40,487 nucleotides of DNA, taken from contig JAFPWD010000012.1 of NCBI GenBank assembly GCA_017395105.1, positions 1 through 40,487 of the forward strand, written 5' to 3'. The position numbers and the translations under genes were made by a program. This document shows, piece by piece, positions 5,846 through 37,500 of this stretch. The DNA comes from Clostridia bacterium (GTDB lineage: Bacteria; Bacillota; Clostridia; Christensenellales; CAG-138). The notes under the pieces are model-generated. The model saw only the letters and a list, made by a program, of their open reading frames with translations. It did no database searches and was not told the origin of the DNA. The number at the start of each line of letters is the position of its first letter. Positions within the stretch are counted from its first letter, which is position 1.

Positions 5846-5970
5846 ATACCAAGCTGTATAATATCCTCGCCGGTTTCATGAGCTGAATGAAACATTTATT
5901 ATGCGGCAAAAACAAGGCTAACCCCTGTTCAAGAGCACAGGGGGCGCTTAGATAACACATGGAGGTCAAA

Positions 5971-8658
5971 ATGAATACTGTAACAGCTCTTATTAAGCGA
6001 CTGCGCAAAAAGTCGAACAAAGCGCTCGCTCTGCTGCTGTGCGCGGCTCTTCTCGCTCCGGTTCTTATCAGCCGCCACGTAAACGCAGAAATCACCATGT
6101 CCCCTGTAAGCATCGATCCCGTGAAGACCGGCATTGAAGCATACCGCCCTCAGCAAGAGAATCCCGATGAAACAACCGATACGGACGGTGATGGCGTTGC
6201 GGATTATCTTGAAAAGTACTATGGAACCGACCCCGAGACCGCCGATACCGACGGCGACGGGCTGAACGACTATATCGAGCTTTTCGTGACCGACACCGAT
6301 CCCGTGCTTGCGGATACGAACGGCGACGGCATCCTCGATTCCCATGAGGATACGGACGGCGACGGACTTGCCAACATCGACGAGGTTCGTTTCGGAACTT
6401 CGCTTGTTGATGCGGATACGGACGGCGACGGACTCGACGACTTCAACGAGATCCGCAAATACGGCTCGGATCCGATCAAGCTTGATACCGATGCAGACGG
6501 GCTTCTCGACGGAGAGGAAGCCGCGCTCGGACTCGACCCCACCTCCCGCGCAACCAACGGCAAAACGGCCGACGGCGAGCTGAAGATCATGCAGGCTTTG
6601 CCCGCCGAAGGCTTTGATCCCGAGCTGTTCAGCGAGAATGCCGCTGTTCCCGCGCTTTCGGGTGAGGTTAGCGGCGTTATCGAAAAGCATGTTTCCGTGT
6701 GCGCTGCAAGCCCGTACAGCCTCGAGAACAATCCCGCGGTATACGGCAAGCCCGTTGTTATCGAAACCGACTGCACGGGCTTCCGCTTCAAGCTCTCCTT
6801 CGACTGCGCTGCGGCAGCCATGCGCTTTGCACCGCTGATGATCTGCCGCTATGAGGACGGCAGGATCGAGCCCTGCGAAAGCGAAGTCAGCGGCAGCGTT
6901 ATAACCGCCGCAATAACCGAAGCAGGCTGCTATTTCGTGATGGATGCCGAGCAGCTCCTCAAGCAGATCGGCAGCCCCGCATATAAATTGATAAGCGCTC
7001 ATAAGGCGGGCGGCAAAGAGGAAGGCGTTCGCGGCGAAACCATAATCAACGACGGCACCTGGGTGCTGCTCAGCGATTACCAGCTCATAAAGCTCGCTCG
7101 TCCGCTTGCAAACGACGGCTTTGATACCGATGGCGACGGCATCTCCGATAAGGCCGAGCTCGGCTCAAGCACCGTTGCGGACGTTTCGCCCTATATCAAC
7201 TGGGTGCTTTCCACATACGATATTCCCGAGGGAATGTATAACGATGCTTCGAGCGTGACCGTTTACAACTACGTTTCAAATCCCGTTCTGCCCGACACCG
7301 ATTTTGACGGCAGAAACGATAATATCGATTATCTCAAGAAGGACAACGCTTTCCGAGGCGAAATGCGCACTTCCCACGCCACGAGCAGCATTTCGATGAA
7401 CATGGATTACCGTTGGTTCTTTGCAAACAATCAGAACTACAATCCGCAGCTCAGCAAGGCTTCGCTCTTGCTTGCCTCCGTCATTTATGGCGGCGAAAGC
7501 CAGATCAGCCTGTATGATTCCGCTAACCATGATGCAAGCTCCAACGTCGGTGTGCGCGGAATGCTGAGCTTCTTTGGATTCGAAAACTGCGCATCGGCAT
7601 CAATAGCACCCGCCGATTATCACGGCTCCGAGATAGCTTTCGGCTACAGAACGGTTGAGTTCGATGGCGCTCAGAGAACCGTGCTTGCGCTCGTTATCCG
7701 CGGCACCAACGGCACCCTTGCAGAATGGGCCAGCAATTTCGACATTGGCGATGCATCGACCTTCGCTTCAACGAGCGAATGGACAAACTATCGTCACCAC
7801 AAGGGCTTCGACGTTACGGCGAACAGGCTTATGTCCATCGTGAACAGCTATATCGATCACCATGGACTGGATCGCTCCACCCTCACCTATTGGATCACCG
7901 GTCATTCGCGCGGCGCCGGCATAGCCAATCTTATCGGTGCAAAGCTTGAGCGCGAGGGCAAGCGTGCCTTCACGTACACCTTTGCCGCACCTAACACCGC
8001 CCGCATCTCAAACAGCGAGGCGCTCAGCTACCGCAGCATCTTCAATCTTGTCAATACCGACGACCTCGTGTGCTACCTGCCCATGGAGGGATGGGGCTAC
8101 ACCAGATACGGCCGCACCGCCAAGCTGAGCCTTGCCGCGAACTACGAGCACGAATGGGAGCAGCTCACGCATATCTGGGATTACAACCCCGATACCATCG
8201 GTATGGACAACACCGTTTACGAGCTCACAAACGTTGTTCACGGCGACCCCAACGTTGAGTGTCATCGCTACACCTGCTCCTGCCATGGCGACGGATCGAG
8301 CAACAATATCACCATCCGAAACCGCGGAATGAGTCGCAACAGCCGCGAAACGGCGATCGCAAAGATACCCGTGAACGCGCTGCCCTTCTGCCGCATCACC
8401 CGCTATGACGGTTGGTTCATCTTTGGATGGGATTTCGAGGTCTGCCAGACTCCCGCATACTTCATGCAGGTGCTTGCAGCCAAGATGGGCGGAGAAATCA
8501 GCAATTACCGATTTGCGGTCGAGCTTGATATGGCAGGCAGATATGAGGCCGCCAAGGCCGCAATAATACGCTCCGCTATAAGCGGCATTGAGCATGCGCA
8601 TTATACGGAGAGCTACTACGTGATCGCAAACAACATCGGCGCAAATCTCTTCAACTGA
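5971..8658 (+). CDS. Secreted lipase class 3 protein with calcium-binding repeats
   Basis: An 895-residue exported protein. A basic N terminus (LIKRLRKKSNK) and a hydrophobic stretch form a signal peptide, probably cleaved near residue 40. Residues about 60-190 hold six DTDGDGxxD thrombospondin type 3-like calcium sites, with two more (FDTDGDGISD, PDTDFDGRND) near 385 and 440. The C-terminal part is a class 3 lipase fold: the nucleophile elbow is ITGHSRGAG with Ser at about 646, inside the pattern expected for triacylglycerol or phospholipid hydrolases. A Cys/His-rich segment (CHRYTCSCHGDG) follows near 770. GGAGGTCAAA sets the start at 5971 rather than the in-frame ATG at 5959. No LPXTG or other anchor is visible, so it is probably released. 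Substrate unknown. Confidence 0.85.
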   Translation: MNTVTALIKRLRKKSNKALALLLCAALLAPVLISRHVNAEITMSPVSIDPVKTGIEAYRPQQENPDETTDTDGDGVADYLEKYYGTDPETADTDGDGLNDYIELFVTDTDPVLADTNGDGILDSHEDTDGDGLANIDEVRFGTSLVDADTDGDGLDDFNEIRKYGSDPIKLDTDADGLLDGEEAALGLDPTSRATNGKTADGELKIMQALPAEGFDPELFSENAAVPALSGEVSGVIEKHVSVCAASPYSLENNPAVYGKPVVIETDCTGFRFKLSFDCAAAAMRFAPLMICRYEDGRIEPCESEVSGSVITAAITEAGCYFVMDAEQLLKQIGSPAYKLISAHKAGGKEEGVRGETIINDGTWVLLSDYQLIKLARPLANDGFDTDGDGISDKAELGSSTVADVSPYINWVLSTYDIPEGMYNDASSVTVYNYVSNPVLPDTDFDGRNDNIDYLKKDNAFRGEMRTSHATSSISMNMDYRWFFANNQNYNPQLSKASLLLASVIYGGESQISLYDSANHDASSNVGVRGMLSFFGFENCASASIAPADYHGSEIAFGYRTVEFDGAQRTVLALVIRGTNGTLAEWASNFDIGDASTFASTSEWTNYRHHKGFDVTANRLMSIVNSYIDHHGLDRSTLTYWITGHSRGAGIANLIGAKLEREGKRAFTYTFAAPNTARISNSEALSYRSIFNLVNTDDLVCYLPMEGWGYTRYGRTAKLSLAANYEHEWEQLTHIWDYNPDTIGMDNTVYELTNVVHGDPNVECHRYTCSCHGDGSSNNITIRNRGMSRNSRETAIAKIPVNALPFCRITRYDGWFIFGWDFEVCQTPAYFMQVLAAKMGGEISNYRFAVELDMAGRYEAAKAAIIRSAISGIEHAHYTESYYVIANNIGANLFN

Positions 8659-8918: not shown

Positions 8919-9021
8919 GCCGCGCCTCATTCGCGGCGGCAGCTTTTACGAAACCCTCAATGCGTATCGCGGCAAGTTAATAATTTGCCGTGATATGATG
9001 AAGCATAGCAAGCATCCGAAC

Positions 9022-9061
9022 ATGCCGCTATTGGAAAATGCAAATTTTCCGATAGCGGCAT
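9022..9061. promoter_or_regulatory. 40-bp palindromic operator, copy A
   Basis: Left half ATGCCGCTATTGGAAA, right half TTTCCGATAGCGGCAT; the arms pair over 18 positions with a single T/G exception around a GCAA centre. The same 40-bp element occurs at 10757 and 12256. It directly abuts the -35 of the following promoter, the position expected for an activator site. Confidence 0.8.
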
Positions 9062-9089
9062 TAACTTTCGACTTAGCAACTGATATAAT
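9061..9089 (+). promoter_or_regulatory. Promoter A (protease gene)
   Basis: TTAACT (9061-9066), 17 bases, TATAAT (9084-9089). Perfect -10 but weak -35 abutting the palindrome, as in activator-dependent promoters. Expected transcript start is near 9096. Confidence 0.75.
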
Positions 9090-9176
9090 ATGTCGAAAAG
9101 GAGGTGGTGTCCAAGAAAAAATCTATCATCGACCATCGACAAACGAAAATATACAAGAAGGAGATTGACATACATA

Positions 9177-10403
9177 ATGGACAACAAAAAAGTTGAAAAC
9201 AATGCATATGCAATAAACCCTTTTGCCTTGGCTGAAACTGTAGCGGGCAAAAGCATAAACTGGGATTCGCTGGAGAAACCCGAAGAAACCCTTTCTCAGA
9301 TCCTGAACGTTCCGATCGATGAGATCTTTGATGCGCGTTTACCGATCTTGGTTCCGCAAGTTGAATTGCAGGAGGATGGGAAAGCAACGGAACTGACACC
9401 GAAGGCGGCAACTGAACGAATTGAGCGGTTCTTAGCTAAAAAACCCCAGTTGAAGTTTGAAAAAGAGCTCCGCATTAAGGGCTTGAACATCGAGTCGGCA
9501 AAGCAACGAATTTCTGTTGCGCTCGTTCCAGATGGCGGTAAAGCTGATAATGTCGCCTCGCCTCAGCCGTGGTATCCCAGTGGAATGGTTTGGGCAGACA
9601 AGGGTGACTACTTTGAAGACGTTCCTGAGGTTTCGGATCCGATTCAGGGCGGTTTGGGCGATTGCTATTTCGTTGCGGCACTCTCGTCTGTTGCATGGTC
9701 AAGACCATATGCTATCGCTAATATTTTGCGTCCATCCTCGTATGATAATGAGGAAAATCCGATACATAGAATAGGCTTTTACGATGCGAACAACAAACTG
9801 ACTTATGTGGAGGTTACGGAGCATGTTCCGGTGATTTCCGGAACTTTGGACTGGAAATATGCAAGATCGTTGGATGCTCGTGAGATTTGGCCGGCCGTTA
9901 TGGAAAAAGCTTACGCAAAGTGGAGGACAGCAGCCGAAAATGACCGCCCCAATTATACGATAATCGGAACAGGAGGAGATCCCGCAGTTGCCTGTCGAGC
10001 GCTTGTTGGCGGAACTATCAGCTACAATTACAACAGCCAAAAAACTACTGATGAGATTGTAAAGTTTGTAAGAAGCAACTGTCGCTCCAAATTTGCATTC
10101 AATCCTATGGTAGCATGGACATATTCCGTTGCACCGGCAGGTTGCAAGTATGATTCAACGACCGGTGTCGTAGCTAGGCATGCTTACTCTATTCTCGGTT
10201 GGGAATATGCAAATGGAACAACCTATGTCGTTCTGCGAAATCCGTGGGGAACCTATGGAGCAACAATAGATACGCTCAGCGGAACATGGCAACCCTACCA
10301 GACCTCATACTATGCAAACGTTCCGTTAAATAGAAACGGTATCTTTGCAATGAAAGCTTCAACCTTTAAGAAGTATTTCTATGCTTGTGCAGTTGTGAAA
10401 TAA
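9177..10403 (+). CDS. Calpain-like (peptidase family C2) cysteine protease
   Basis: A 408-residue protein whose C-terminal 260 residues are a calpain-type papain-fold protease. The catalytic triad is visible: Cys163 in GGLGDCYFVAALSSVA, His335 in VVARHAYSILGWEY and Asn355 in VVLRNPWG. The oxyanion Gln (IQGGLGDC) is also present. The 150-residue N-terminal region is hydrophilic with no signal peptide or membrane segment, so the enzyme appears cytoplasmic or exported by another route. No EF-hand or C2 domain follows, unlike animal calpains. An earlier in-frame ATG at 9090 lies in the -10 region, so the start is 9177, with AGAAGGAG 12 bases before it. It is driven by the palindrome-linked promoter A and is AT-rich like the rest of this island. 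Its substrate is unknown. Confidence 0.88.
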   Translation: MDNKKVENNAYAINPFALAETVAGKSINWDSLEKPEETLSQILNVPIDEIFDARLPILVPQVELQEDGKATELTPKAATERIERFLAKKPQLKFEKELRIKGLNIESAKQRISVALVPDGGKADNVASPQPWYPSGMVWADKGDYFEDVPEVSDPIQGGLGDCYFVAALSSVAWSRPYAIANILRPSSYDNEENPIHRIGFYDANNKLTYVEVTEHVPVISGTLDWKYARSLDAREIWPAVMEKAYAKWRTAAENDRPNYTIIGTGGDPAVACRALVGGTISYNYNSQKTTDEIVKFVRSNCRSKFAFNPMVAWTYSVAPAGCKYDSTTGVVARHAYSILGWEYANGTTYVVLRNPWGTYGATIDTLSGTWQPYQTSYYANVPLNRNGIFAMKASTFKKYFYACAVVK

Positions 10404-10660
10404 GTAAGGCTTCTCAGCGGTATGCTTTTTTCCTCGCTATTCATACCGCTGAGACCTAAATGCGGGAATCATGGAGGGCATCGGCAAACGGTGCATGGTA
10501 ATAGTCGGTATGCTCCATGACTAAACGAGTTCCACCCGGCAAGGATTTGGCCTCCTCGCTAAAACGGTCAGATCCTTGCCTGACTCTCTCTCAATTCCAT
10601 GCTTCAAAAAGTATTCGCTGCGATTAAGCCGCATAATGAGCGCAGGCTTGAGTTGAACTT
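10404..10660. other. Non-coding stretch with three hairpins
   Basis: No convincing gene. Hairpins: 10413-10424 with 10442-10453 (12 bp, loop of 17, no T-run after it, so a weak terminator for the protease gene at best); TCATGGAG at 10468-10475 with CTCCATGA at 10513-10520; and GGCAAGGAT with ATCCTTGCC (10538-10580, extended by 5 more pairs after a mismatch). A short open frame from 10599 (MLQKVFAAIKPHNERRLEL) runs into repeat copy B and may be a gene remnant. Confidence 0.5.
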
Positions 10661-10756
10661 TTCACGGCGGAACCTTCATGAAACCAAACTGAAATATCAT
10701 ATCAAACCAAGTGAATTATTTGCCGTGATATGATGAAACATAGCAAATATTTGATC

Positions 10757-10796
10757 ATGCCGTAATCGGAAAATGCGCACTTCCCGATAGCGGCAT
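10757..10796. promoter_or_regulatory. 40-bp palindromic operator, copy B
   Basis: Left half ATGCCGTAATCGGAAA, right half starting TTCCCGATAGCGGCAT; same length as copies A and C with a few mismatched pairs. The most degenerate of the three. Confidence 0.75.
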
Positions 10797-10824
10797 GGTG
10801 GTTTTGGCTGGAAAGATGTATAAT
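10796..10824 (+). promoter_or_regulatory. Promoter B, no obvious gene
   Basis: TGGTGG (10796-10801, poor -35), 17 bases, TATAAT (10819-10824). The downstream 200 bases hold no supportable ORF; the first real gene is the regulator at 11122, which has its own promoter. Region 10825-11015 otherwise shows nothing I can name. Confidence 0.55.
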
Positions 10825-11015
10825 TTTATGAATAAAAACTGCACAATTGTTGGTGTTTGGGCAGTCTTGAGAACGATTGACCAAAACAGATAAGCCCCGA
10901 TGCTCCTCCATCTCGGCCTGTGCTGCCCCATCTATGTCAAGCCCGCTGCCTGCGGTCATTCGGCAGGAAGGAAGACGATTTGGAAAATATATTGATTGCG
11001 CGCTGAGTTAAAGCC

Positions 11016-11045
11016 TTGAAAAAACAATCTTAAAACCTTTATAAT
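11016..11045 (+). promoter_or_regulatory. Promoter of the XRE-TPR regulator
   Basis: TTGAAA (11016-11021), 18 bases, TATAAT (11040-11045), 77 bases before the start codon. No palindrome at this promoter, so the regulator is probably expressed without the operator. Confidence 0.65.
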
Positions 11046-11121
11046 GGCATAGAAACATCCGCTGTTTTGATGCGGTGAGTTTTTCACCGTGCATCAGATA
11101 ACAACAGGAGGGAATTTGTCT

Positions 11122-12066
11122 ATGCCGGTTTACAAAATTGGTTATCTCATAAAAGAACGAAGGTTGGAATTGGGAATCACACAGGAGGATCTTGCTGACG
11201 GTATTTGCGCTGTTACAACTCTTTCTCGAATAGAAAACGGAGAAAGAGTTCCAAGCAAAGACCATTTCGAGAGGCTGATTCAGCGCTTAGGTGTTTCCGA
11301 CATTGTTTTTTATACCCATGTTGATAAGAATACGCTGTACCTGCATGAACTGAAGTTTAAAATCAGAGATTTGATTGCGCAGATGCAGTATAAAGAGGCA
11401 ATGGAATTGCTGAATGACTATTCAAGCAAAGCAGATATGAGCTTGCGGTTTGAAAAGCAATTCGTATCGCTTTACCACACGCTATTGAACAAAGACTCCT
11501 TTAGTTTGGATGAGCGCTTATATAGGCTGAGTGAAGCTATTAGTTTTACCTGCCCAAGATATAACGATGGATTTATTCCGAATTTGCTTTCTTACGAGGA
11601 GATTATAGCCTTAAACAACATAGCCATTTGTTATCAGGAAATGAGGGATTTCAATAAGGCGATAAGCATTCTATCCCATATAAAGAACCACCATGAAAGC
11701 GGGATTGTCAATCGAGAAGAGTGCCTCAAAACACAAACGATGGTATTATACAATCTCTCTAAAAACTATGGTCTTTCAGGGAAGTATGATGAATGCATAG
11801 AGATTTGTGATTTGGGAATCAAAATCGCATGCGAATCCGGACGCTGCGGCTGTTTATCGCAACTTCACTATAATCGCGCATGGGCTCTTTCCAAGCGTAT
11901 GCTGCCCGGCGATATGGAGCAAGCAGAAACTGCCGCAAGAAAAGCGATCTTTGCGGCAGTTTCAATGGGTGATGAACAAGCGGTGGAACACTACAAGCAG
12001 TTTTACTTTCAAAACTTCACACAGTTTAATTTATTGCTGAACTACGACATTGGGGTAATCACATAA
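11122..12066 (+). CDS. XRE-TPR regulator, RNPP/Rgg-like
   Basis: A 314-residue cytoplasmic regulator. Residues about 5-60 are an XRE helix-turn-helix (IGYLIKERRLELGITQEDLA, then TTLSRIENGERVPSKDHFERL). The remainder is all-helical with degenerate TPR-like pairs (for example ALNNIAICYQEMRDFNKAIS and LYNLSKNYGLSGKYDECIEI). This architecture and length match RNPP/Rgg-type regulators, whose TPR domain binds a short imported peptide. AGGAGGG at 11106-11112 fixes the start at 11122 rather than the upstream ATG at 11089. The last 36 bases overlap the end of a convergent gene for a small secreted peptide, the arrangement seen for some Rgg/SHP pairs. Three palindromes nearby are the obvious candidate binding sites. 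That peptide and operator pairing is inference. Confidence 0.85.
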   Translation: MPVYKIGYLIKERRLELGITQEDLADGICAVTTLSRIENGERVPSKDHFERLIQRLGVSDIVFYTHVDKNTLYLHELKFKIRDLIAQMQYKEAMELLNDYSSKADMSLRFEKQFVSLYHTLLNKDSFSLDERLYRLSEAISFTCPRYNDGFIPNLLSYEEIIALNNIAICYQEMRDFNKAISILSHIKNHHESGIVNREECLKTQTMVLYNLSKNYGLSGKYDECIEICDLGIKIACESGRCGCLSQLHYNRAWALSKRMLPGDMEQAETAARKAIFAAVSMGDEQAVEHYKQFYFQNFTQFNLLLNYDIGVIT

Positions 12067-12162
12067 TGGTGCATTCTCGTTGTAGTCCTCAGCAAAACAT
12101 GTTGCGCTGAGGCAGAAAGACAAAAGGATAAGGGACAAAAGAATCGCTAATAACTTTTTCAT
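12031..12162 (-). CDS. Small secreted peptide, candidate pheromone precursor
   Basis: A 43-codon gene. AAGGAG, 7 bases, ATG at 12162-12160. The product starts MKKLLAILLSLILLSF, a textbook signal peptide with a basic tip and leucine-rich core, and a cleavage site after ATCFA would release EDYNENAPLCDYPNVVVQQ. The hydrophobic C-terminal stretch (NVVVQQ) resembles the short active ends of PapR- and SHP-type peptides. It is convergent with, and overlaps by 36 bases, the XRE-TPR regulator. Its promoter (TGGTCA at 12256-12251, 17 bases, TATGCT at 12233-12228) abuts palindrome C, which also serves the plus-strand operon. The ORF, ribosome site and signal peptide are direct observations; the signalling role is inferred. 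The two Cys residues leave room for another role such as a small toxin. Confidence 0.75.
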   Translation of the reverse strand: MKKLLAILLSLILLSFCLSATCFAEDYNENAPLCDYPNVVVQQ

Positions 12163-12227
12163 TGGCTTACTCCTTTTTATTGACAATATTCAGTCGTTTT
12201 TGCAAGTCGCAAAATGACTATGTAAAG

Positions 12228-12256
12228 AGCATAACATACGCACTGCATAATGACCA
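12228..12256 (-). promoter_or_regulatory. Promoter C-left (peptide gene)
   Basis: Minus strand: TGGTCA (12256-12251), 17 bases, TATGCT (12233-12228). Mirror image of promoter C-right around the palindrome. Expected leader before the peptide start is about 60 bases. Confidence 0.6.
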
Positions 12257-12302
12257 TGCCGTTATCGGAAAGTATAAATTTTCCGATAACGGCATGGTCA
12301 TT
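12249..12302. promoter_or_regulatory. Palindromic operator, copy C (bidirectional)
   Basis: The 40-bp core at 12256-12295 (left half ATGCCGTTATCGGAAA, right half TTTCCGATAACGGCAT) matches copies A and B. Here the symmetry extends to a perfect 23-bp pair of arms (12249-12271 with 12280-12302), so both -35 hexamers (TGGTCA on each strand) lie at its edges. Confidence 0.8.
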
Positions 12303-12323
12303 GCATCTATCGCATGTTACAAT
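12295..12323 (+). promoter_or_regulatory. Promoter C-right (secreted-protein/ABC operon)
   Basis: TGGTCA (12295-12300), 17 bases, TACAAT (12318-12323). Same 23-base distance from palindrome core to -10 as copies A and B. The first clear gene is almost 390 bases downstream, so a long leader is implied unless another promoter is used. Confidence 0.55.
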
Positions 12324-12710
12324 GAACAAATCAACATAGAATTGAGCAAAAGGCATAGCTCATTAAGTGTTTCTGCGCACAGTTTGCTAAGCTCAAGCGG
12401 TTTAGGGGAATGCTGTGCAGAAAGCAAACACGAATCCGTTGTTGTAGTTATCATCAAAACGATGAGTTCTCACTCATTTGATGTAACTCCTTTGGTCGTG
12501 TTCCTCTATAGCTATTTAAGTCCTTATGGTTGTGCACTTGCTTTTTGCAGGCTGTTTTTGAAGATACTTTGCTGTCGGGGAGGGATTGCTTATGATTGTT
12601 TATATATCGTGAACCATCAAAGAAAAGAACAGCGCAATATACGACTGTTTGATCGAATGTTTGTTATGAAGGTTTGCGCCAGAATTCTTCCTGGCAGAAA
12701 GGAAAAAGGA
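12324..12710 (+). other. Long leader or decayed gene before the secreted-protein operon
   Basis: The frame of the next gene is open across this stretch, but no start has a ribosome site and the encoded residues show no domain, so I do not count it as coding. On the minus strand, AAAGGAG at about 12492 precedes a 7-codon ORF, and a shifted frame would read DDNYNNG, loosely like the EDYNENA segment of the peptide gene. It could be a decayed second peptide gene, but the case is weak. Confidence 0.35.
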
Positions 12711-13115
12711 ATGCTAAAAAGAATTACAGCCGCCTTTGCTGCGGCGATGTTTATACTGACAGTGGTATGCATACCAGCATATGCAGCTTCTGTTACGTAT
12801 GCCAATAGATTTTCATCTTGGTTAGAAGGCGACTATTACAAATGTCAGTATCAGTTCATACCGGCACACCGAGGAACAACCGATGATCCGTTCTGTGATT
12901 ATGGGAAGCACATTAAACAAGCCTATGTAAGTGCGCACAGGAACTCCGGCAGTATTTTGGGTATAGGTTTATGGGATGCCTATTCCACAGGACGCATGTA
13001 TTCAGCTGCGGCTAAGAGCAAATCTGACACGAATATCTACTATACCCCTGTTGCCTCTATAGTCAACACATGGTATGCTGTTGAGTATACCAATTATGGT
13101 TACACCAACTTTTAG
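12711..13115 (+). CDS. Small secreted protein, paralog 1
   Basis: A 134-residue exported protein. MLKRITAAFAAAMFILTVVC then an AYA|A-type cleavage site gives a mature chain of about 107 residues rich in Tyr, Ser and Asn. The C-terminal part contains GRMYSAAAKSKSDTNIYYTP, which matches GRKYTALADSTSDYNIYSIS in the next gene, so the two are paralogs. No known domain is recognised. AAAGGAAAAAGGA precedes the ATG; the frame is open further upstream but without a signal or ribosome site. The order, small secreted proteins followed by an FtsX-type ABC transporter, resembles lactococcin 972-type bacteriocin loci, but similarity to that bacteriocin is not evident. It could also be a signalling or envelope-active protein. 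Confidence 0.78.
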   Translation: MLKRITAAFAAAMFILTVVCIPAYAASVTYANRFSSWLEGDYYKCQYQFIPAHRGTTDDPFCDYGKHIKQAYVSAHRNSGSILGIGLWDAYSTGRMYSAAAKSKSDTNIYYTPVASIVNTWYAVEYTNYGYTNF

Positions 13116-13128
13116 GAGGTAGATCAAT

Positions 13129-13524
13129 ATGAAGACAAAAAGGAGCATTGCAAGCCTACTGCTTGCAATAATAGCCATATTAAGCATGGCAACTGCTGTG
13201 CTTGCTGAATCGACTCAAACCTATGCGAAAAGCGAGCATCCGGGTTTGTTTAAATACTATGGATACTGCCAAGTTCAGGGTTCATATAGGATTCCGCAAA
13301 ATCCGGGATATGGACTAGACCGCTATGTTGGCAGATACATCAAACGTGGTGCTATTGACTACAGGATTGATGACAATTCAATAATCGGCGGACGCAAATA
13401 CACTGCTCTCGCTGATTCAACGAGTGATTATAATATCTACTCAATATCTGTTACGGCGTACGATGATATTTTTAACTGGTTCGGCCCCAAAACAGAGTTT
13501 CACAGGTGGTATTTCCCCTTTTAA
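13129..13524 (+). CDS. Small secreted protein, paralog 2
   Basis: A 131-residue exported protein, 13 bases after its paralog and preceded by a strong AGGAGG. The signal peptide (MKTKRSIASLLLAIIAILSM, cleavage probably after AVLA) leaves about 105 residues, aromatic-rich, ending HRWYFPF. It shares the GRxYxAxAxSxSDxNIY block with paralog 1, while the N-terminal halves have diverged and it carries KYYGYCQVQGSYR instead. Each mature chain has one or two Cys. No catalytic motif is seen. Candidate secreted antagonist or signal exported by the Sec pathway; the ABC transporter downstream would then protect the producer rather than export it. This is inference from gene order. Confidence 0.78.
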   Translation: MKTKRSIASLLLAIIAILSMATAVLAESTQTYAKSEHPGLFKYYGYCQVQGSYRIPQNPGYGLDRYVGRYIKRGAIDYRIDDNSIIGGRKYTALADSTSDYNIYSISVTAYDDIFNWFGPKTEFHRWYFPF

Positions 13525-13564
13525 TTAAGCCTTGAATCATTAATCTTTGGAGGGAGAGCGATCA

Positions 13565-14623
13565 ATGAAGCATCTCTTATCAAAATCTTTGCCGGTCGTT
13601 GTGATTAATTTTTTCACTGCATTGTGTGTGACAATTATCTTTTCGACTATTGTTTATGCCTTTGAAATGGCTGGCAGGTTTCAAGATGGACTATCTGATA
13701 ACTATCGGCTGTTTACCATATTGCAGTTCAACGAAGTGGATGAGAACGAAGGTTTAGACCTCACATCGTTGTTTGCAAAAGTAGATAATATCAGTGCAAA
13801 GGCCAAACTTCTGCGTTATGACGGCTCTATTGAATGCGGAGTTTATCAGAACAAAGGAGAATTTGATGTTTCCCTTAAAGAAGGTCGCTCTTTCTCCAAA
13901 GAAGACTTTGTTACCATGAGAAATGTTGCTCTTGTTTCAGAGGAACAGCTTTCAATGTGTGCAGAACGAGATGGCATTCGCTATATATCTGTGCAGGATG
14001 AACCATACGAAGTAATCGGCGTGTTCTCTCGTTCACGTAATCGTATCAATCCAGATGCATATGTGTATTACAATTTAAATACACTAAAATCATCATCACT
14101 AATTAAGGGACAGTATGCTGTGGATGCCGGTGCAGAAACGGTTGACTTATTCGATGAAATAGTCAAAGATTTTCAAATTCAGCTCATTTATTCTGCCGAT
14201 GAGTTGACATTTAGCGGTAGGCTTCGCACTGCCATATCCAGCCAGCAAATGGCAGTATTGCCGTTTATACTTGTTGTGGCTATGATATTATTAAACTCGA
14301 TCAATATATCATTCAATTGGTTGGATAAAAGAAGACAAGAGCTATCTGCTCGGAGAATATGTGGCGCAACTGTAAATGATTTATTCCGGTTGTTATCCAA
14401 AGATTATTTTATGCTGGTCACATTCAGTTATATTATCGGATTGGTTGCCTCTATTGCTTTGGCTCAAATAGCGCTTGTACAGGCGATAGGTGTCGACTTT
14501 TCGATAGTAACTATTATGTTATCCTATCTTATGACTATGATTGCGGGAACTATTTCTGTCTCGCTTATGCTTGTTTCGGCGAGGAAAAAAACCGTTGCAG
14601 AACAAAGGAGATTTTGGTCATGA
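13565..14623 (+). CDS. FtsX/MacB-type ABC permease 1
   Basis: A 352-residue membrane protein with the FtsX/MacB layout: one N-terminal helix (about 9-32), an extracytoplasmic domain of about 190 residues, then three C-terminal helices. The cytoplasmic coupling segment DKRRQELSARRICGATVNDLFRL between the second and third helices carries the 'E(L)xxRRxxGA' signature by which such permeases contact the ATPase. Upstream frame starts with TTG at 13547, but GGAGGGAG sets the ATG at 13565. It overlaps the next permease by 4 bases (ATGA). Such transporters act by mechanotransmission in peptide resistance or sensing rather than classic export. The partner protein is the second permease. Confidence 0.83.
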   Translation: MKHLLSKSLPVVVINFFTALCVTIIFSTIVYAFEMAGRFQDGLSDNYRLFTILQFNEVDENEGLDLTSLFAKVDNISAKAKLLRYDGSIECGVYQNKGEFDVSLKEGRSFSKEDFVTMRNVALVSEEQLSMCAERDGIRYISVQDEPYEVIGVFSRSRNRINPDAYVYYNLNTLKSSSLIKGQYAVDAGAETVDLFDEIVKDFQIQLIYSADELTFSGRLRTAISSQQMAVLPFILVVAMILLNSINISFNWLDKRRQELSARRICGATVNDLFRLLSKDYFMLVTFSYIIGLVASIALAQIALVQAIGVDFSIVTIMLSYLMTMIAGTISVSLMLVSARKKTVAEQRRFWS

Positions 14624-15786
14624 AACAGTTAAAATATGTTTTTTCCGATTTCGTACGCAACAAGCGTGTAAATTTGTTTTTCCTGATTCAAATGATAGTT
14701 GTATTCCTATTGGTTGGCCTATCAGCTAATTCTATTATCTCTACAATGAAAGGATACCGTGCCGTTGCAGCTATTCGCAACGCACAGGCGTATATTCTTT
14801 CAGATAGTACATCCGATGATCGCTTTCACGAAATATTTGAAGCAAGTGATGAAAACGAGCCGAAACTCCGTGAGTTACTCAGTTTCATTAAAGAACGCAA
14901 CATAGAAAAAACTTATTCACAATACAGTTATCCTGTGGATCAGTTTAACGGAATGCCTGTTTTTCAGTACACTGCGAACAGATCTTTTTTTGAAGTATTT
15001 GGTTTGACTTGTAATCAAGGTAGTGATTTTACAGAAAATGATTATGTTTTAGGGACAGATGGTACTATACCGATTATAGTTGGATACGGGTTGCGAACAA
15101 CCTATTCTTTGGGGGAAACGTATCCAATAAGAGATGCGGGAACGGGAATGGATCTTCACTGCAAAGTAATTGGCATTTTGCCGCGAGGAGCTTCCTTCTA
15201 CGACATCCATAATTTGAGCAACGAAATCAATCTTGATCATTCCTATATCAAGCCGATGCAGGATGGAAATATCGAATCAATGAGTTTTTCGGATGTGGAT
15301 ATGGCAATATCCTCTACTGTTTTTTTCACTAACAACGTCGATGAAGTTCGTTCCGTTCAGCAGAAATCGAAAGAGCTCGGGCTGTTCGACTATAAAGTTT
15401 CAACGCCACAGGAGCGAATACAATGGTTTGTTGAGCATATGAAAGAGCGAAATCTTTTTCTACTTTCCATTGCTACAATTATTGTTATTTTTGCAGCAAT
15501 TGGCATGAGTGCGAACCTCAGTATGATCATCTCGAAAAATATGAGAGAGTATTCTATCCATATCCTGTGCGGAGGTCGTTATATCGATATTTACAAACGG
15601 CTGTTTATGCAAATGCTCATTCTCATGCTAATCGCATTGGTTCCAACTGCAATTAGCATCGGGCTGTCCACAAGTCTCTTTGTTACTGCTATCTTCGCTG
15701 TGATGATCTCTGTAGCAATAATGACTACGCCGATTATCAAACTATATGCCATGCCTATAAATCGATTGTTAAAGGAGGGAATCTGA
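14620..15786 (+). CDS. FtsX/MacB-type ABC permease 2
   Basis: A 388-residue partner of permease 1, with the same layout: a first helix at about 20-42, a large external domain to about 280, and three helices to the end. The segment SKNMREYSIHILCGGRYIDIY corresponds to the coupling helix. The ATG at 14620 has AAAGGAG at optimal distance and overlaps the previous stop by 4 bases; its stop overlaps the ATPase start by 1 base, so stoichiometric translation is likely. Two different permeases suggest a heterodimer. Low similarity to BceB-type permeases, which are single chains of about 650 residues. Confidence 0.83.
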   Translation: MKQLKYVFSDFVRNKRVNLFFLIQMIVVFLLVGLSANSIISTMKGYRAVAAIRNAQAYILSDSTSDDRFHEIFEASDENEPKLRELLSFIKERNIEKTYSQYSYPVDQFNGMPVFQYTANRSFFEVFGLTCNQGSDFTENDYVLGTDGTIPIIVGYGLRTTYSLGETYPIRDAGTGMDLHCKVIGILPRGASFYDIHNLSNEINLDHSYIKPMQDGNIESMSFSDVDMAISSTVFFTNNVDEVRSVQQKSKELGLFDYKVSTPQERIQWFVEHMKERNLFLLSIATIIVIFAAIGMSANLSMIISKNMREYSIHILCGGRYIDIYKRLFMQMLILMLIALVPTAISIGLSTSLFVTAIFAVMISVAIMTTPIIKLYAMPINRLLKEGI

Positions 15787-16460
15787 TGGATATTGCAATC
15801 AGATTAGATAGTGTTACAAAAACCTATCTTACGGGTACTACTCAAACAACCGCACTAAATGGAATCTCAATGACCGTCAACCGCGGAGAAATGGTTGCTG
15901 TTATGGGAGCATCAGGCTCCGGAAAAACAACCCTAATGAATATCATTGGGTTACTGGATGATGCTACAACAGGGACATATCTGCTAAACGGAAAAGACAT
16001 TGGTTCCTTGAAAGATAAGTCCAAAGCTGAGCTTCGCAATGCTTCCTTTGGCTTTGTTGTGCAGGATTTCGCTTTGGTGGATCAGTATACTGTTAAGCAA
16101 AACGTTGAATTGCCGTTTACATATTCCAAACTGCGGCGTTCACGTGATGAGAAGGATGCTCGGATACATGAAGTTCTGAAAATGCTTGGAATAGAGAATA
16201 AAGAAAAGGAACGTGCAGTAAATTTATCGGGAGGACAACGTCAACGAGTGGCTATAGCCCGTGCTATTATCTGCAATCCGGATATTATTTTAGCCGATGA
16301 GCCTACAGGCGCATTGGACTCCGTAACTTCATCCGAAATTATGGATGTGCTTGCGAAATTACATAGTACAGGAAAAACTATACTTGTTGTAACACACGAT
16401 AGCAATGTTGCTCAATGTTGTCAACGGGTTATAACTATTTCTGATGGAAAAATACTTTAG
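15786..16460 (+). CDS. ABC transporter ATPase (MacB/LolD type)
   Basis: A 224-residue ATPase, typical length for the MacB/LolD/FtsE group. Walker A is GASGSGKT at 41-48, the Q-loop is in FGFVVQDFALVDQYTV, the signature is LSGGQRQRVAIARA, Walker B is IILADEPTGALD and the H-loop is VVTHD, so all motifs are intact. It powers the two permeases encoded just upstream, whose genes overlap it. The group includes the ATPases that accompany lactococcin 972-type bacteriocins and antimicrobial-peptide detoxification modules. It ends the operon; a bidirectional terminator follows at 16523. Confidence 0.92.
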   Translation: MDIAIRLDSVTKTYLTGTTQTTALNGISMTVNRGEMVAVMGASGSGKTTLMNIIGLLDDATTGTYLLNGKDIGSLKDKSKAELRNASFGFVVQDFALVDQYTVKQNVELPFTYSKLRRSRDEKDARIHEVLKMLGIENKEKERAVNLSGGQRQRVAIARAIICNPDIILADEPTGALDSVTSSEIMDVLAKLHSTGKTILVVTHDSNVAQCCQRVITISDGKIL

Positions 16461-16581: not shown

Positions 16582-16899
16582 TTATTTGCTCATTCTTTTG
16601 ATGATAGTTTTGAGAAGCTCAAGGTCATCGCTTCCAAGCCGCGAAAGCATTTCGGCGACAGGCTCAAGCTGCTTTTCGCTGCGCTCGCCAAAGAGCAGAT
16701 AATCAGCGGAAACATCGAGCGCGCGGCAGATATTGACGAGGTTTTCGGGGCGCACCGCCTTCTTTCCAAGCTCTATGCTCGAGATCGATTGGATGCTGAG
16801 CTCCACCGCCTCGGCAAGCTCTTTCTGCGTCATATTCAGCTCCTTGCGCCGCTCATATATGCGGCTGCCAAGTTCAAAAAGCAAGCTCTCTTTGCTCAA
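16582..16899 (-). CDS. XRE family repressor
   Basis: A 105-residue DNA-binding protein. Residues 8-65 form the HTH_3 domain (GSRIYERRKELNMTQKELAE, then SIQSISSIELGKKAVRPENL), with the recognition helix in IQSISSIELG. The C-terminal 40 residues (EPVAEMLSRLGSDDLELLKT) look like a short dimerisation helix pair, as in SinR-like or phage-type repressors. It starts with TTG, with GAGGTGAT at a suitable distance. Next upstream on the same strand is the coiled-coil membrane gene, 39 bases away. Its base composition is higher in GC than that gene, so the two may have different histories. Target unknown. Confidence 0.82.
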   Translation of the reverse strand: MSKESLLFELGSRIYERRKELNMTQKELAEAVELSIQSISSIELGKKAVRPENLVNICRALDVSADYLLFGERSEKQLEPVAEMLSRLGSDDLELLKTIIKRMSK

Positions 16900-16938
16900 T
16901 GCATCACCTCATTGCTTTCTTTGCAAACAAAGAAGTAA

Positions 16939-18096
16939 TTATTTTACAAGGTATATATCAGCAATTCCATATTGTCCCCACCTTGAAACAATTTCAAAGA
17001 TTACAGTCGTTGTGTTATATATAGGCACTTCGTATGAGAGTATTGGCATATCTCCATGCAAATCAATGGTTTTGCACTCTTTAAGCTCGTTGTGATTGTC
17101 ATAATAATATATCACAAGCCTGCCGTCACTCATATCTGTATTATCTATATGTCCTAAGGTAAAAGTAATCTTCGAGTACTCACGATTACACGCAATTTTA
17201 AACCGTCGATTATAGGATGTATCATTAGAAGTCACCCCATAATGATAATCATTTAGCCCCATGGAAAAATGATCTCCGCCGTCAAATGTCGTGATACGTT
17301 CAGCATCATAAATAATCCTTGAAGTCACCTTAACTTTTTCAGGAGCGGGTTTGTCGTAAAAAATGGTATTGTCTTCAAAAACGAAAGACTTAGGTAAAAC
17401 CTGATTCAAGAAGTCCTCAGAATAATAGTTGTGAGATTGAATCACAGCCATATAATCGCGAAGAGTGGTATCAATTTCTTCGCCTGAAACTGTGGCAGCC
17501 GGAGTACTCAATTCTGCCCAAATCCTATCTTTATATTCAGCAATTTCATCCTTATAGCCTTGTATCTCATTGTTAAGTGCGTCAATAGTCTTGCTATTTT
17601 CGATATCAGAATCCTCATACTGTTTCTTATAGCTGTCACGTTCTGACTCGATTGATCTAATACTTTTAGTCAGTTTTTCAAAATAATCAGACAGAAGCGA
17701 TAACAATTGCTCTTGAGTAACGCTATTTGAATCAGCATCAATTGCACCACTATCTCTTAATAAATCATAAAGTTTCAAAGTTGCATCTTGGTTTACCTTC
17801 TCATTGTTGTACATAGCGGTAGCAATCATATCAAGTTGCTCATAGGGGTTTTCAAGGCCAAGTATTGCTTTGTCAACATACTTAGGCGCAACAAAAGCAC
17901 TATCTATCTTTGATGAAATGCTGTCGAACGAAACGATGTTTTTTTGTGTTGTATGTGTGATAATAGCATCTATTCCAAAAATAACTGTTAGCAAAGACAT
18001 TATAATTGTTACAAAAGGCTGAAAAAGAACCTGCATCACATTGGCAAATGTGGGGTTTTCAGACAGTTTCTTTAATCGGTCTTTGGACAGCTTCAT
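16939..18096 (-). CDS. Membrane-anchored coiled-coil protein with NPCBM-like C terminus
   Basis: A 385-residue protein of unknown function, AT-rich. A single membrane segment at about residues 20-42 (FVTIIMSLLTVIFGIDAII) follows a short basic cytoplasmic tip. A coiled-coil region at about 125-200 (repeated Glu/Asp/Lys heptads, for example ERDSYKKQYEDSDIENSKT) leads to a linker. The last 140 residues are beta-rich with FKIACNREYSKITFTLGHID and MPILSYEVPIYNTTTVIFEI, resembling the NPCBM-type carbohydrate-binding fold in pattern. Three ATGs are in frame; only the third (18096) has GGAGG at proper spacing, since the first ATG lies inside that site. A surface-exposed sensor or binder is plausible but unproven. 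Confidence 0.7.
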   Translation of the reverse strand: MKLSKDRLKKLSENPTFANVMQVLFQPFVTIIMSLLTVIFGIDAIITHTTQKNIVSFDSISSKIDSAFVAPKYVDKAILGLENPYEQLDMIATAMYNNEKVNQDATLKLYDLLRDSGAIDADSNSVTQEQLLSLLSDYFEKLTKSIRSIESERDSYKKQYEDSDIENSKTIDALNNEIQGYKDEIAEYKDRIWAELSTPAATVSGEEIDTTLRDYMAVIQSHNYYSEDFLNQVLPKSFVFEDNTIFYDKPAPEKVKVTSRIIYDAERITTFDGGDHFSMGLNDYHYGVTSNDTSYNRRFKIACNREYSKITFTLGHIDNTDMSDGRLVIYYYDNHNELKECKTIDLHGDMPILSYEVPIYNTTTVIFEIVSRWGQYGIADIYLVK

Positions 18097-18276
18097 TCTC
18101 ATTTCCTCCATGTTATTTTTTGATATTTATCGGCATAATTATAGCATTAATGCAATATACGGTCAAATATATTAGTTTGCGTGTTTTCTTTTCTAAAGCT
18201 GAGCATCCGTACGCTGGCGTTTATTCTAAAATTGCTTCCAAAAATAATATGGGGCAAAAAACTACGTTTATATGCA

Positions 18277-33978: not shown

Positions 33979-34099
33979 CAGATGAAGCTTTTTCGCTGCG
34001 CTCAAAAATGATGCCGTTCGCTGCGCTCACTAATGAAGCGAAGCCGCAATGCTTTGCCGCAATTCATTTCTTCATTAGCCCGAACGGGCGGCTTCATTG
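33979..34099 (-). repeat. Micro-hairpin repeat related to the 40.2 kb array
   Basis: Minus strand AATGAAGCCGCCCGTTCGGG then CTAATGAAGAAATGAA, with TTGCGGC/GCATTGCGGC-type short stems. The same AATGAAGCCGCC and GAAGAAATGAAG words occur at 40205-40235. It forms the replaced 3' end of the recombinase remnant. Confidence 0.5.
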
Positions 34100-34532
34100 A
34101 AAAAAGCACGCTTGCTCGTGCTTTTTTCATGGGTAAGACTACCCAAGCGGAGTAGTATTCGGCCATGCCTTCAAGCACCGCCTCCATTAGGATTCCCTCC
34201 GAACCGTCCGATATCTTCTCCGTGGCGGAAAGCACCTTCACGCCGTTCTTTCGCAAAATCGACTTGTAATGTGCGGAATCGTACCTGTCGTGGGCAAAAC
34301 GATCCAGCTTCCATACGATGATAACCTCAAACTTTCTGCCGGAGCTGTCTTTGATCATCCTTTGAAAGTCTGGGCGATTGTCTGTCCTTGCGGAAAAGGC
34401 GCGATCAATATAGGTGCCAACAATTTGAATATCATTCTTCTCCGCAAAGGCTCGGCACTCTCGCAACTGCCCTTCTATAGATTCCTCCCGCTGATTATCT
34501 GAGGAATAGCGAGCGTAGATTACACCGGTCAT
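34002..34532 (-). pseudogene. Truncated serine recombinase (resolvase domain only)
   Basis: Residues 1-129 (34532-34146) are the catalytic domain of a large serine recombinase: VIYARYSSDNQ with the nucleophilic Ser at position 10, SIEGQLRECRAFAEKNDIQI, DNRPDFQRMIKD, VWKLDRFAHDRYDSAHYK, ILMEAVLEGMAEYYSA. At the point where the family continues with the recombinase/zinc-beta-ribbon region, the sequence switches to a terminator hairpin and the micro-hairpin repeat, giving 47 unrelated residues. It therefore lacks the DNA-binding part of about 350 residues and is very likely inactive. It follows the restriction-modification gene by 26 bases on the same strand and marks past mobility of that block. 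Confidence 0.85.
34100..34127. terminator. Bidirectional terminator inside the recombinase remnant
   Basis: AAAAAAGCACG (34100-34110) pairs with CGTGCTTTTTT (34117-34127), 11 bp with a 6-base loop. Confidence 0.8.
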
Positions 34533-34558
34533 TAAACCCCTCTTTCTACTTCCTTTTG

Positions 34559-37500
34559 TTAGATCGAAATGTCTTGTGAAATGATGGAATTGAGACGCGA
34601 TACAATATCACGTTTGCTTTGATCCAACATAAGATACTTATTTACTATCTCTTGCTGTGCCATAATATCTATATTTCCATTAATGTCAGTCGGAACAGGA
34701 AACATGATGTCTTGAATCATAAACGGAGGAAGCGTCGTATATTCGTTCTCTCCATTATCGCCCTCGCGCCCCTTTTTTGCGTTTCGAAACAAAGGTTCCA
34801 GCACATATTTTAAGTACTGTAAATCCATTTTTTCCTTATACTGAGCTTTTAGCAACAAAACGCCACGATGATTGGTTGCAGAGAATTTTTCATGATGAAT
34901 CATTATGTATCCAGCTAGTCCATCTATTGCCCACGAGAGACAAGGTGAATTAAAGTCAAATGTATCAATAAAAGAAAACTCTCCCGTTGTGTTACCAGAA
35001 AACAGTGAGTATTGACCACGATGCTTTTGAACATAACTCTTTGTGTATTTACCACTCCCTCGAATGACATCAAAGATATTACAAACTGACATATAACTAT
35101 ATTGATAGTTCTCGTCTTCAAGGATTACTCTAATAGAGTTTATTCTGTTGCGTTTTTCAGACAACGCATGTCTAACCTGATTGATACTTAGAAGGGCTTC
35201 CGCAATATGCGATTGAGCGATTTCATCGAATTTCCCCGCATCATCGATAGGCATTGATATCTTAACACTTTTCATATTACTAAGGGATGCACGTAACCCT
35301 CGATCAAATCCATACTGATGCTTGCTCTTCTCCAGCATATACGCTAAATAGTAAGGATTGATTGATGAATCCAATATCCGTATAGCACCGCAGTGATCAG
35401 TATGTGCAAAACGCTCTCCAGCCAGCATAACATTAAATGAAAAATCGCCATCGATTCCCCAAATTACATAAGGGGTATCCCATGATACAATATTTGATAC
35501 ATCAGAGAATGCAAATGGTTGAAAAACATTTGCGCTATATACGGGAATATCCCCTTTTGGCTCAATATAGTCTTTTTTCAAAATACGCTTTCCGATGGTT
35601 AATTCAAAATACTTGTTATCTGCAAGCGAAATATCCATCGAATTAGTTATCACTGATTTTTTTTTTACTAAATCGCGCAACGGCTCATCATACTCGGTCA
35701 GCGTTGCTGCCGCATCACTAACCATGCTAATATATTCTTCGAGAGTTACCGCCTCAACATTTTCTTCAATACCAAGTTCAATTTTTTCGTCCCGTGTCCA
35801 CCACCGATCGACCGACCAATGGGAACCATCATAGAAGGAGGTGATATCCACAATTTTACAACGTTTATCGTCGGTCTTGAATCGAGTTTTTGCGCCTTTA
35901 AACATATTGAAAAGGTCAGAAGCTCTCTCAAGATCATTCTGATCAATGTCAAAACGGTATACATCCCGAGTCTCACCTATCTCAGAACAAAGATAGGTGA
36001 AAACCGGAGTGGTCTGCCTTTCAAGTGTAGAAACCCCACCAACATTAACAGTCTCCTTCTTTGTGATGGCAAGGATATATGTCTTTTTATTTGTTGTAAA
36101 GAATGTATTCAGCGGCAGGGAAATAACAGCATCAATACAGCACCTCTCAAGGATAAAGTCGCGGAGTTTCTTATCATTACTGCGATTCATAATGCCGTCA
36201 GGCACGACAATAAACGCCTTACCGCCCGGCTTTAAGGCGCGAATAATCCACTCCATGAACAGACCTTCAATGCCCATAGCACTGATTGTGTAATGCTTTT
36301 TCAGTATATCATCTTTTACAATCTCATCCTTGAGATTGCTACTGCCGCTCATCACATAAGGGGGATTGGTCAGAATAAGATCATACTTATCGACAACCGG
36401 TCTTGCAAGCGTTCCAAGAATGGAATTGGTTTGGAGCAGGAAAGTATCATTGAAAAGCTGTGCAAACTTATTTGTAATGTCGGGATGTTCTTTGATCATT
36501 CCGGACATATAGATAAGCATATTGGCCTTTGCAAGAATAATCGTCTTCTGCTCATCTTTGTCAAAGCCTTTGTCGAATCCAGACAGCTTGACTTGGGGTT
36601 CCAGCGTGTCCTGTCCTTCGTCATCTTTTCCGATTTTAAACAGTCTATCAAGTTTATGAAGAATCGGCTCAAGCAAGAACTTGCCAACACCACAAGCAGG
36701 ATCGCATATTTCCATTCCCGCAGTAATATCGACCATGTTTACAATAGCACGAACTACTTTAAGCGGCGTGAAATACTGTCCCCAATTCTTTTTGCTAATT
36801 GACTCTTTTAAGAACGTTTCAAAGAGCTTGCTCTTAAAATCATAGTCAATATTTTCGAGCGTACCAAAATCATTGAAGCGTTTTAAGATACGATGAAACA
36901 CTGTAGCATAGCCGGAAACTGCTTTGTCATCCTTGGATACAAAGATAGTTCCATTGATAATAGTCGTCTTATCCTTAGGATTGCCAGGGAACAATTCTTT
37001 GATTTTCACTCGAACAGTAGATGCATAGTACTCCAAAACTTCGTTCTCGTTATTTCCGGAGTATCTCCCGAGGAGATCATAAAAGGAATACATTCCTTTG
37101 AGCACACCAAGATCGCTGAGATATTTAAATATAAATATCTCAACGAATGTATATAAGCAGTTCTCCGGAGTTGCACCGGAGACAGCCCACAAATCCTGCC
37201 AAACTTTTTCAGCAAGTGGGAGAGGATCTACCGAGGCAGCAGCTTTGAGATTGTCATTGGTTGCGCTGATAGAAGATCTAATCTTGTTTATCAGCGTAAT
37301 ACAATCAGTGCTGTTCTTATCAAAATTCAATGTAATCTTACTGCCATCTTCCTGCAAGACTTCATTGCCTGTTGCAGGATTCACCCAGAAGGATTTTTTG
37401 CTGTCAGTGACAATATACACTCTTGCTTGCAACGCCTGTGCAGTTCCAAGCTCCTGTACAATCGCCTTCTCTACTTGCTTTTTTGTGCGCAATTGAGCTG

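Follow-up and report, generated by a model that had tools for sequence, protein, structure and literature searches.

The contig JAFPWD010000012.1 of a Clostridia bacterium (Christensenellales, CAG-138; assembly GCA_017395105.1), analyzed here over its whole length of 40,487 nucleotides (the window) and belonging to a 1.9-Mb genome that is 68% complete, contains a locus that very probably encodes a one-component peptide quorum-sensing circuit of the RNPP kind. Its core consists of a regulator gene, a convergent gene for a small, putatively secreted peptide, and palindromic operators next to promoter-like sequences. The locus probably represents a new RNPP quorum-sensing subfamily, which resembles TprA/PhrA and PlcR/PapR and has an operator, a peptide motif and a cargo of its own. 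A first-pass annotation had proposed a peptide circuit for this stretch; that interpretation gained support from a layout that is kept in relatives, while the wiring is still deduced from sequence. The core elements and their promoter-like sequences are as follows.

11122–12066, plus strand: RNPP-type regulator of 314 amino acids with an XRE helix-turn-helix (HTH) and a tetratricopeptide repeat (TPR) domain (HTH_3 and RNPP_C above cut-off, PlcR match in the PDB).
12031–12162, minus strand: convergent gene for a small, predicted secreted peptide of 43 amino acids, candidate pheromone precursor; an open reading frame (ORF) with a ribosome-binding site (RBS), position and length the same in genome G020, position kept in G088, G100 and G465.
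12252–12299 (40-nucleotide palindrome 12256–12295), no strand: predicted operator site 3, two back-to-back regulator boxes with 20-nucleotide arms and an 8-nucleotide spacer.
10753–10800 (40-nucleotide palindrome 10757–10796), no strand: predicted operator site 2, palindromic, arms agreeing at 15 of 20 positions, about 320 nucleotides 5' of the regulator gene.
9018–9065 (40-nucleotide palindrome 9022–9061), no strand: predicted operator site 1, palindromic, arms agreeing at 16 of 20 positions (pattern and arm comparison).
12228–12256, minus strand: promoter-like sequence toward the peptide gene (−35 TGGTCA, 17 nucleotides, −10 TATGCT).
12295–12323, plus strand: promoter-like sequence toward the operon for secreted proteins and an ATP-binding cassette (ABC) transporter (−35 TGGTCA, 17 nucleotides, −10 TACAAT).
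9061–9089, plus strand: promoter-like sequence toward the calpain-like protease gene (−35 TTAACT, 17 nucleotides, −10 TATAAT).
10796–10824, plus strand: promoter-like sequence toward the regulator gene, target uncertain (−35 TGGTGG, 17 nucleotides, −10 TATAAT).

The XRE-TPR regulator named in the annotation was confirmed by matches to HTH_3 (E 3e-13) and RNPP_C (PF18768, 34.4 bits, cut-off 26.5), the latter domain being present at E ≤ 0.01 in 12 of 13 aligned regulators. The best PDB match was PlcR (2qfc, E 2.7e-11, residues 3–277 of 314), and PlcR was matched again with a four-sequence regulator profile (E 6.4e-15). No chain labelled Rgg was found among the PDB matches of the regulator, and ComR chains matched only about residues 5–88, the HTH part. 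With a predicted N-terminal HTH and an RNPP-type TPR ligand domain, the regulator fits the RNPP/RRNPPA receptor family. The PDB match and RNPP_C are the features shared with PlcR/PapR of the Bacillus cereus group. In that system, papR follows plcR in the same orientation and PlcR recognizes the box TATGNANNNNTNCATA; the peptide gene of the window is instead convergent, and the box sequence differs.

The 43-codon peptide gene was likewise borne out. It encodes MKKLLAILLSLILLSFCLSATCFAEDYNENAPLCDYPNVVVQQ, has AAGGAG upstream of its start and shares 36 nucleotides with the 3' end of the regulator gene. The product has no match in Pfam and matches NCBIfam Phr_nterm below threshold (14.0 bits, cut-off 25); its length and overlap fall within the range outlined for RRNPPA propeptides, which is 10–100 amino acids at −60 to 400 bp from the receptor gene (PMC10075063). 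Propeptides of this family are exported, most of them by way of a Sec signal. By a simple rule of charge and hydrophobicity the N-terminus of the window peptide is signal-like, as are those of the ORFs in G020, G088, G639a, G639b, MT837704 and MT837634. A convergent, overlapping small ORF accompanies five of the six closest regulators, namely that of the window and those of G020, G088, G465 and G100 (the latter four with 79, 60, 46 and 33% identity to the window regulator, respectively), but not that of G767. The overlapping ORFs end in ...PLCDRPNIVVQQ in G020, ...GYCDRSYSDEEQ in G088 and ...TNCDGSWERTGLY in G100. Judged by eye, the five closest peptides share a [C/W]-D motif that starts 11 residues before the C-terminal end in G100 and 10 residues before it in the other four; this motif is possibly the pheromone core. 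Since the motif lies outside the overlap in G088 and G100, it is not imposed there by the regulator gene.

The frequency of the layout was determined with a fixed rule, comprising an ATG-started ORF of 18–70 codons with an RBS and its stop at −90 to +10 of the upstream stop, a signal-like N-terminus by charge and hydrophobicity, and a palindrome score of at least 16 at +60 to +320. Among 22 regulator loci, eight had the convergent ORF, which was signal-like in seven; six had the palindrome, and four combined a signal-like ORF with a palindrome. The corresponding numbers for 190 control ORFs were two, zero, two and zero. The controls were the longest non-overlapping ORFs of at least 150 amino acids in 23 loci, not verified genes. 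The set excluded the regulators, every ORF of L036 (a locus overlapping L015) and ORFs whose stop is no more than 350 nucleotides from the end of the locus. Loci L052 and L058 offered 223 and 210 nucleotides downstream of the regulator. The rule misses the ORFs of G100 and G499a because their RBSs are weaker.

The unit of the operators is the box TTTCCRNWAACGGCATGGTC, whose TGGTC starts the −35 hexamer. With up to three mismatches, the palindrome pattern occurred at three places in the 1.9-Mb genome, all in this locus (reversed control, 0); boxes far from the locus could have escaped detection, as the genome is incomplete. Within the family it was found in 2 of 103 genomes, the window genome included, each of which carries the regulator (100 and 79% identity). 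In G088, G100 and G025 a regulator homologue is present and the exact pattern was not matched, in the first two because the box sequences vary. A search for single boxes, imposing no −10, in the genomes of the window, G020, G088, G100 and G465 gave 58 matches with up to three mismatches against 15 in the reversed control, those with three mismatches being mostly background. At most one mismatch was seen in 13 boxes, of which 12 lie no more than 3 kb from the regulator; the remaining one is at another place in the G088 genome. All 13 are followed exactly 17 nucleotides past the −35 hexamer by a TANNNT hexamer matching TATAAT at four or more of six positions, a kind of hexamer that starts at 710 of the 63,740 positions of these loci (1.1%); we claim no formal probability because the sites share descent. 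The −10 sequences on the peptide side are weak (4/6; TATGCT, TATGCT, TATCCT, TATGTT and TACCAT), and the eight on the cargo side are stronger (5–6/6; five TATAAT, TACAAT, TATGAT and TATCAT). In the window, G020, G088 and G100, the regulator-adjacent operator consists of two back-to-back boxes with CCGN4CGG-like dyad centres 24 bp apart (23 in G088), so that one operator would be common to two divergent promoters, with the peptide gene one way and the cargo the other.

The three palindromes had been described as identical in length and fixed in promoter geometry. Their lengths are indeed equal and their right arms all lie 17 nucleotides from a −10 (TATAAT, TATAAT and TACAAT), but the left arms follow this geometry at site 3 only. 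Nor is their quality uniform: site 3 has perfect arms of 23 nucleotides, whereas sites 1 and 2 have imperfect arms and belong to an 89-nucleotide duplication of operator and flanking DNA (8973–9061 and 10708–10796, 83% identical); these two sites would act, if at all, in one direction. The duplication suggests a route by which a new gene could come under control. Site 2 may add feedback on the regulator; the 290 nucleotides between its promoter and the regulator gene hold no convincing gene.

Such a duplication, together with the palindrome scores of at least 16 behind 2 of the 190 control ORFs, would also be expected if the palindromes were mobile repeats (of the miniature inverted-repeat transposable element or repetitive extragenic palindrome type) or transcription terminators, independent of the regulator. 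We rejected this identity, which appears extremely improbable, on genome copy count, regulator co-occurrence and promoter geometry: the 68%-complete genome holds no extra copies at up to three mismatches, both matching family genomes carry the regulator, and site 3 is located 5' of both genes, flanked by divergent promoter-like sequences that keep the 17-nucleotide spacing exactly. In addition, the symmetry survives sequence changes, as in G100, where the box differs in both arms (CATGACG/CGTCATG).

The annotation had suggested a search of homologous loci for co-occurrence of regulator, peptide ORF and palindrome. All three are retained in G020 (contig JAFWVQ010000059.1, a metagenome-assembled genome from sheep omasum), G088 (CADAGD010000005.1) and G100 (JAJFTZ010000036.1), and G465 (CAMKED010000013.1) keeps the convergent ORF with two one-armed boxes. 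Further convergent signal-like ORFs overlap the regulator end in G499a, G639a, G639b, MT837704 and MT837634. A long downstream palindrome of different sequence is present in G639b and MT836677, the candidate ORF of the latter having just 18 codons. In G639b this is a 24-pair palindrome unrelated to that of the window, located between the peptide gene and a gene that reads as an ABC exporter (L053:6978–7028, reverse-complement coordinates), that is, the same layout with another operator sequence.

In the circuit we propose, the small convergent gene would yield a Sec-exported precursor, whose C-terminal part, with [C/W]-D about ten residues from the end, would be released and build up with cell density. 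An oligopeptide permease would import the mature peptide, which would bind the TPR domain of the regulator, and the regulator would bind boxes TTTCCRNWAACGGCA immediately abutting the −35. At site 3, one operator would switch the peptide gene, as feedback, together with the divergent secreted-protein/ABC operon, and site 1 would bring the protease gene into the regulon. The promoter-proximal dyad lies at about −42 from the predicted start, assuming 6 nucleotides from −10 to start. This position would suit an activator, such as PlcR, and the overlap with the −35 would equally suit a repressor relieved by peptide, such as TprA. TprA represses until its peptide binds (PMC7595303).

Several observations weigh against the circuit. 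The ORF of G465, MKSFMSKTANLNSSVNQAAYEIMTPPWDLDDSPVDQ, has by reading no signal peptide. The last peptide codons lie within the regulator gene, which may impose part of the similarity between the window and G020 peptides; among the 32 codons outside the overlap, 24 differ, 16 of them non-synonymously, and the changes at codon positions 1, 2 and 3 (13, 6 and 13) are just mildly coding-like. The G767 regulator (39% identity) has neither peptide ORF nor box, and no signal-like overlapping ORF and no palindrome score of at least 16 at +60 to +320 was found for G025, G725, G499b, G499c, G892a (partial match), G892b, G940, G1083 and G1208, although the G1083 ORF overlaps without a signal. G831 has just a non-overlapping signal-like ORF, G499a, MT837704 and MT837634 have the ORF and no comparable palindrome, and G639a has the ORF and merely 223 nucleotides downstream for the palindrome test. 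Homologous regulators lacking both a small ORF and palindromes had been named as what would speak against the proposal; six more distant homologues from the phylum search, namely G499c, G892a, G892b, G1083, G940 and G1208, are of this kind, and four of the five closest are not. Oligopeptide-binding proteins (SBP_bac_5, PF00496) were found in all five regulator genomes, with four in the window genome, but also in 11 of 14 control genomes and hence discriminate little.

Part of this evidence would agree with a different role of the peptide, namely that the regulator and palindromes form a real pair and the small secreted peptide acts as an effector or on membranes, the regulator sensing something else, such as another peptide or a metabolite. 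The peptide gene itself stands behind a box and is hence also a target, distant relatives share, by reading, the signal-like N-terminus and little of the C-termini, and the missing signal peptide in G465 points the same way. We nevertheless consider this role unlikely, given that the overlap with the regulator 3' end is kept down to 33% identity, that the position of [C/W]-D is shared by the five closest ORFs and that the regulators contain RNPP_C. Alternatively, the convergent ORF could be an untranslated by-product of the overlap, with the divergent promoter yielding an antisense RNA that tunes the regulator. That promoter is indeed directed antisense into the end of the regulator gene, the codons in the overlap are under constraint, and the codon-position signal is mild. 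An RBS and a signal-like N-terminus in several lineages, the identical length of 43 codons in G020 and the absence of such a signal-like ORF from all 190 controls make the antisense explanation highly improbable, and we favor the peptide-sensing circuit.

Among described systems, compared by description, the closest arrangement is TprA/PhrA rather than Rgg-SHP in general, so that the RNPP part of the RNPP/Rgg-SHP layout originally assigned to the locus stands and the Rgg-SHP part gives way to TprA/PhrA. As described, TprA/PhrA and TprA2/PhrA2 of Streptococcus pneumoniae likewise pair a PlcR homologue with a Sec-exported peptide encoded on the opposite strand, an orientation also found here, and have transporter and secreted-peptide genes nearby in the regulon; they differ in their heptapeptides (VDLGLAD and LDVGKAD), which are unlike the C-termini here, and in their lantibiotic cargo (PMC7595303, PMC5436883). 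Group III Rgg/SHP systems of streptococci are described with a convergent peptide gene that overlaps the end of the regulator gene, as in the window (PMC13361665), but the SHP reference propeptide is listed without a predicted Sec signal (PMC10075063), whereas the peptide here has 43 residues and is signal-like. By their description, the Qsr/Qsp systems of Clostridium acetobutylicum are similar in being clostridial RRNPP regulators with small signal-peptide ORFs downstream (PMC7376267). Since convergent peptide genes are known from Group III Rgg/SHP and TprA/PhrA, the novelty would lie in the probable subfamily, not in the principle. RRNPP_detector is reported to have returned 21 new candidate subfamilies from a screen of 7,974 complete genomes and chromosomes of Firmicutes (PMC10075063), one of which may coincide with this regulator group. 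We found no description of this circuit among the listed titles and abstract openings on RRNPP, clostridial, rumen, Christensenellales or PlcR quorum sensing, a search confined largely to open-access literature.

The regulator is rare. Within the family, 5 of 103 genomes have it at E ≤ 1e-10, including one at 26% identity. Profile searches found it in at least 3 of 396 genomes of the order (1e-30), at least 6 of 391 of the class (1e-25) and at least 6 of 398 of the phylum (1e-30). The profile counts are lower bounds because up to five candidates per genome were scored; every count takes in the window genome, and the four samples overlap. A scan of the GTDB 220 contig collection, which depends on short exact motifs and picks up nearer relatives only, gave four loci, three of which are those of G020, G088 and G100 (L014, L016 and L017, counted once). 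A phage origin was rejected, as five viral-contig loci match the HTH part only (query residues 2–76 at most); these loci contain no exact match to CGGCATGGTCA-N17-TATAAT. The three records examined out of five faecal ones deposited as 'Bacteriophage sp.' contain distant regulator homologues, two of them with a signal-like convergent ORF.

The cargo genes of the window are the following.

9177–10403, plus strand: calpain-like (C2) cysteine protease, by reading without a signal peptide (Peptidase_C2, PF00648, E 1.2e-24; Cys, His and Asn motifs by reading).
12711–13115, plus strand: secreted protein A, 134 amino acids, signal peptide by reading.
13129–13524, plus strand: secreted protein B, 131 amino acids, paralogue of A (30% over 111 amino acids, E 7e-8).
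13565–14623, plus strand: FtsX/MacB-type permease 1 (FtsX above cut-off).
14620–15786, plus strand: FtsX/MacB-type permease 2 (below cut-off: MacB_PCD 5e-4, FtsX 0.025).
15786–16460, plus strand: ABC ATPase of MacB/LolD type.

Hence the paralogy of the secreted pair and the C2 protease, as annotated, were corroborated, whereas the two-permease FtsX-type transporter holds for permease 1 and the ATPase, permease 2 being recognized only below the domain cut-offs. The protease did not hold as a component of the circuit, as it occurs in 1 of 103 family genomes. We rejected the entire cargo as a conserved system on this count, on permease 2 (2 of 103 family genomes) and on a G088 homologue without a box within 9 kb. 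A lactococcin-972-type bacteriocin was also rejected for the secreted pair, the window genome having no PF09683 match at E 10. PDB searches gave three matches at E 0.23 or worse in one case and none in the other, and the ABC ATPase scored 227.3 bits against the lactococcin-972-type TIGR03608, under the cut-off of 254.85.

Across the window, G020, G088, G100 and G465 the circuit is constant and the cargo variable. In the window, the secreted pair and the ABC transporter lie at site 3 and the protease at site 1. The G020 cargo consists of a 169-aa protein whose N-terminus is signal-like and of membrane proteins (two scanned, no Pfam match), with a second box at 4578. In G088 an ABC-2 transporter is accompanied by an ABC protein, in front of which lies a second box, and, at a distal box, by a lipoprotein-like gene of no Pfam family. 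This last gene (L035:5889–7148, G088:C33) is faced by the sole box with at most one mismatch outside a regulator locus in the five genomes. The G100 cargo is a radical S-adenosylmethionine (SAM) enzyme (E 1.4e-18), preceded by a 39-codon ORF that by reading is a possible precursor peptide. Both lie right behind the operator (L012:11377–12934) and are candidates for a quorum-controlled modified peptide; after the radical SAM gene, a further box at 12915 has three mismatches and TATGAT at 17 nucleotides. In G465, a secreted protein with an SLH domain has a box in front. Upstream of the G465 regulator, an SLH protein gene (L015:6214–7752, plus strand) contains a caspase-like domain (PF00656, 21.7 bits, cut-off 21.4). 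It is a second cysteine-protease-type gene beside this regulator group, and no near-perfect box precedes it. The G020 cassette lies between genes that we take to be rpoC- and rpsL-like; its neighbors are presumably S10-operon genes in G100 and gyrA in the window, which indicates that the cassette has no one fixed genomic place.

The locus occupies an AT-rich island at 9–18 kb, as annotated, with a GC content of 0.36–0.46 compared with 0.54–0.58 at 6–9 kb and 0.50–0.57 at 18–24 kb. The island comprises the calpain-like protease, the regulator, the minus-strand 43-codon ORF, the two secreted paralogues, the two permeases and the ABC ATPase. At 16582–18111 it also holds genes for another small XRE regulator (HTH_3) and for a membrane-like protein with coiled coils, and it ends there at gyrase genes (names by reading). 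Just outside, at 5959–8658, reading points to a large secreted protein in which D-x-D-x-DG repeats are numerous and a lipase-like GHSRG motif is present. A second AT-rich stretch (34002–37798) carries, by reading, a type I restriction-like methylase/specificity fusion and a recombinase fragment.

We tentatively suggest, while regarding it as rather doubtful, that the locus is a horizontally portable quorum-sensing cassette in which any gene gaining a box plus promoter would fall under peptide control, and that its cargo, which comprises secreted proteins in pairs, exporters of the FtsX type, a radical SAM enzyme that may have a precursor peptide, and a calpain-like protease, would represent undescribed social or antagonistic effectors. 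The circuit itself offers a quorum-sensing system that can be tested directly, whose signal peptide, operator and regulon are predicted, in a group of Clostridia that the named records represent by metagenome assemblies (four of four titles). Its predicted operator code is simple enough that genomes of this kind may be searched with it for secreted effectors and peptide natural products.

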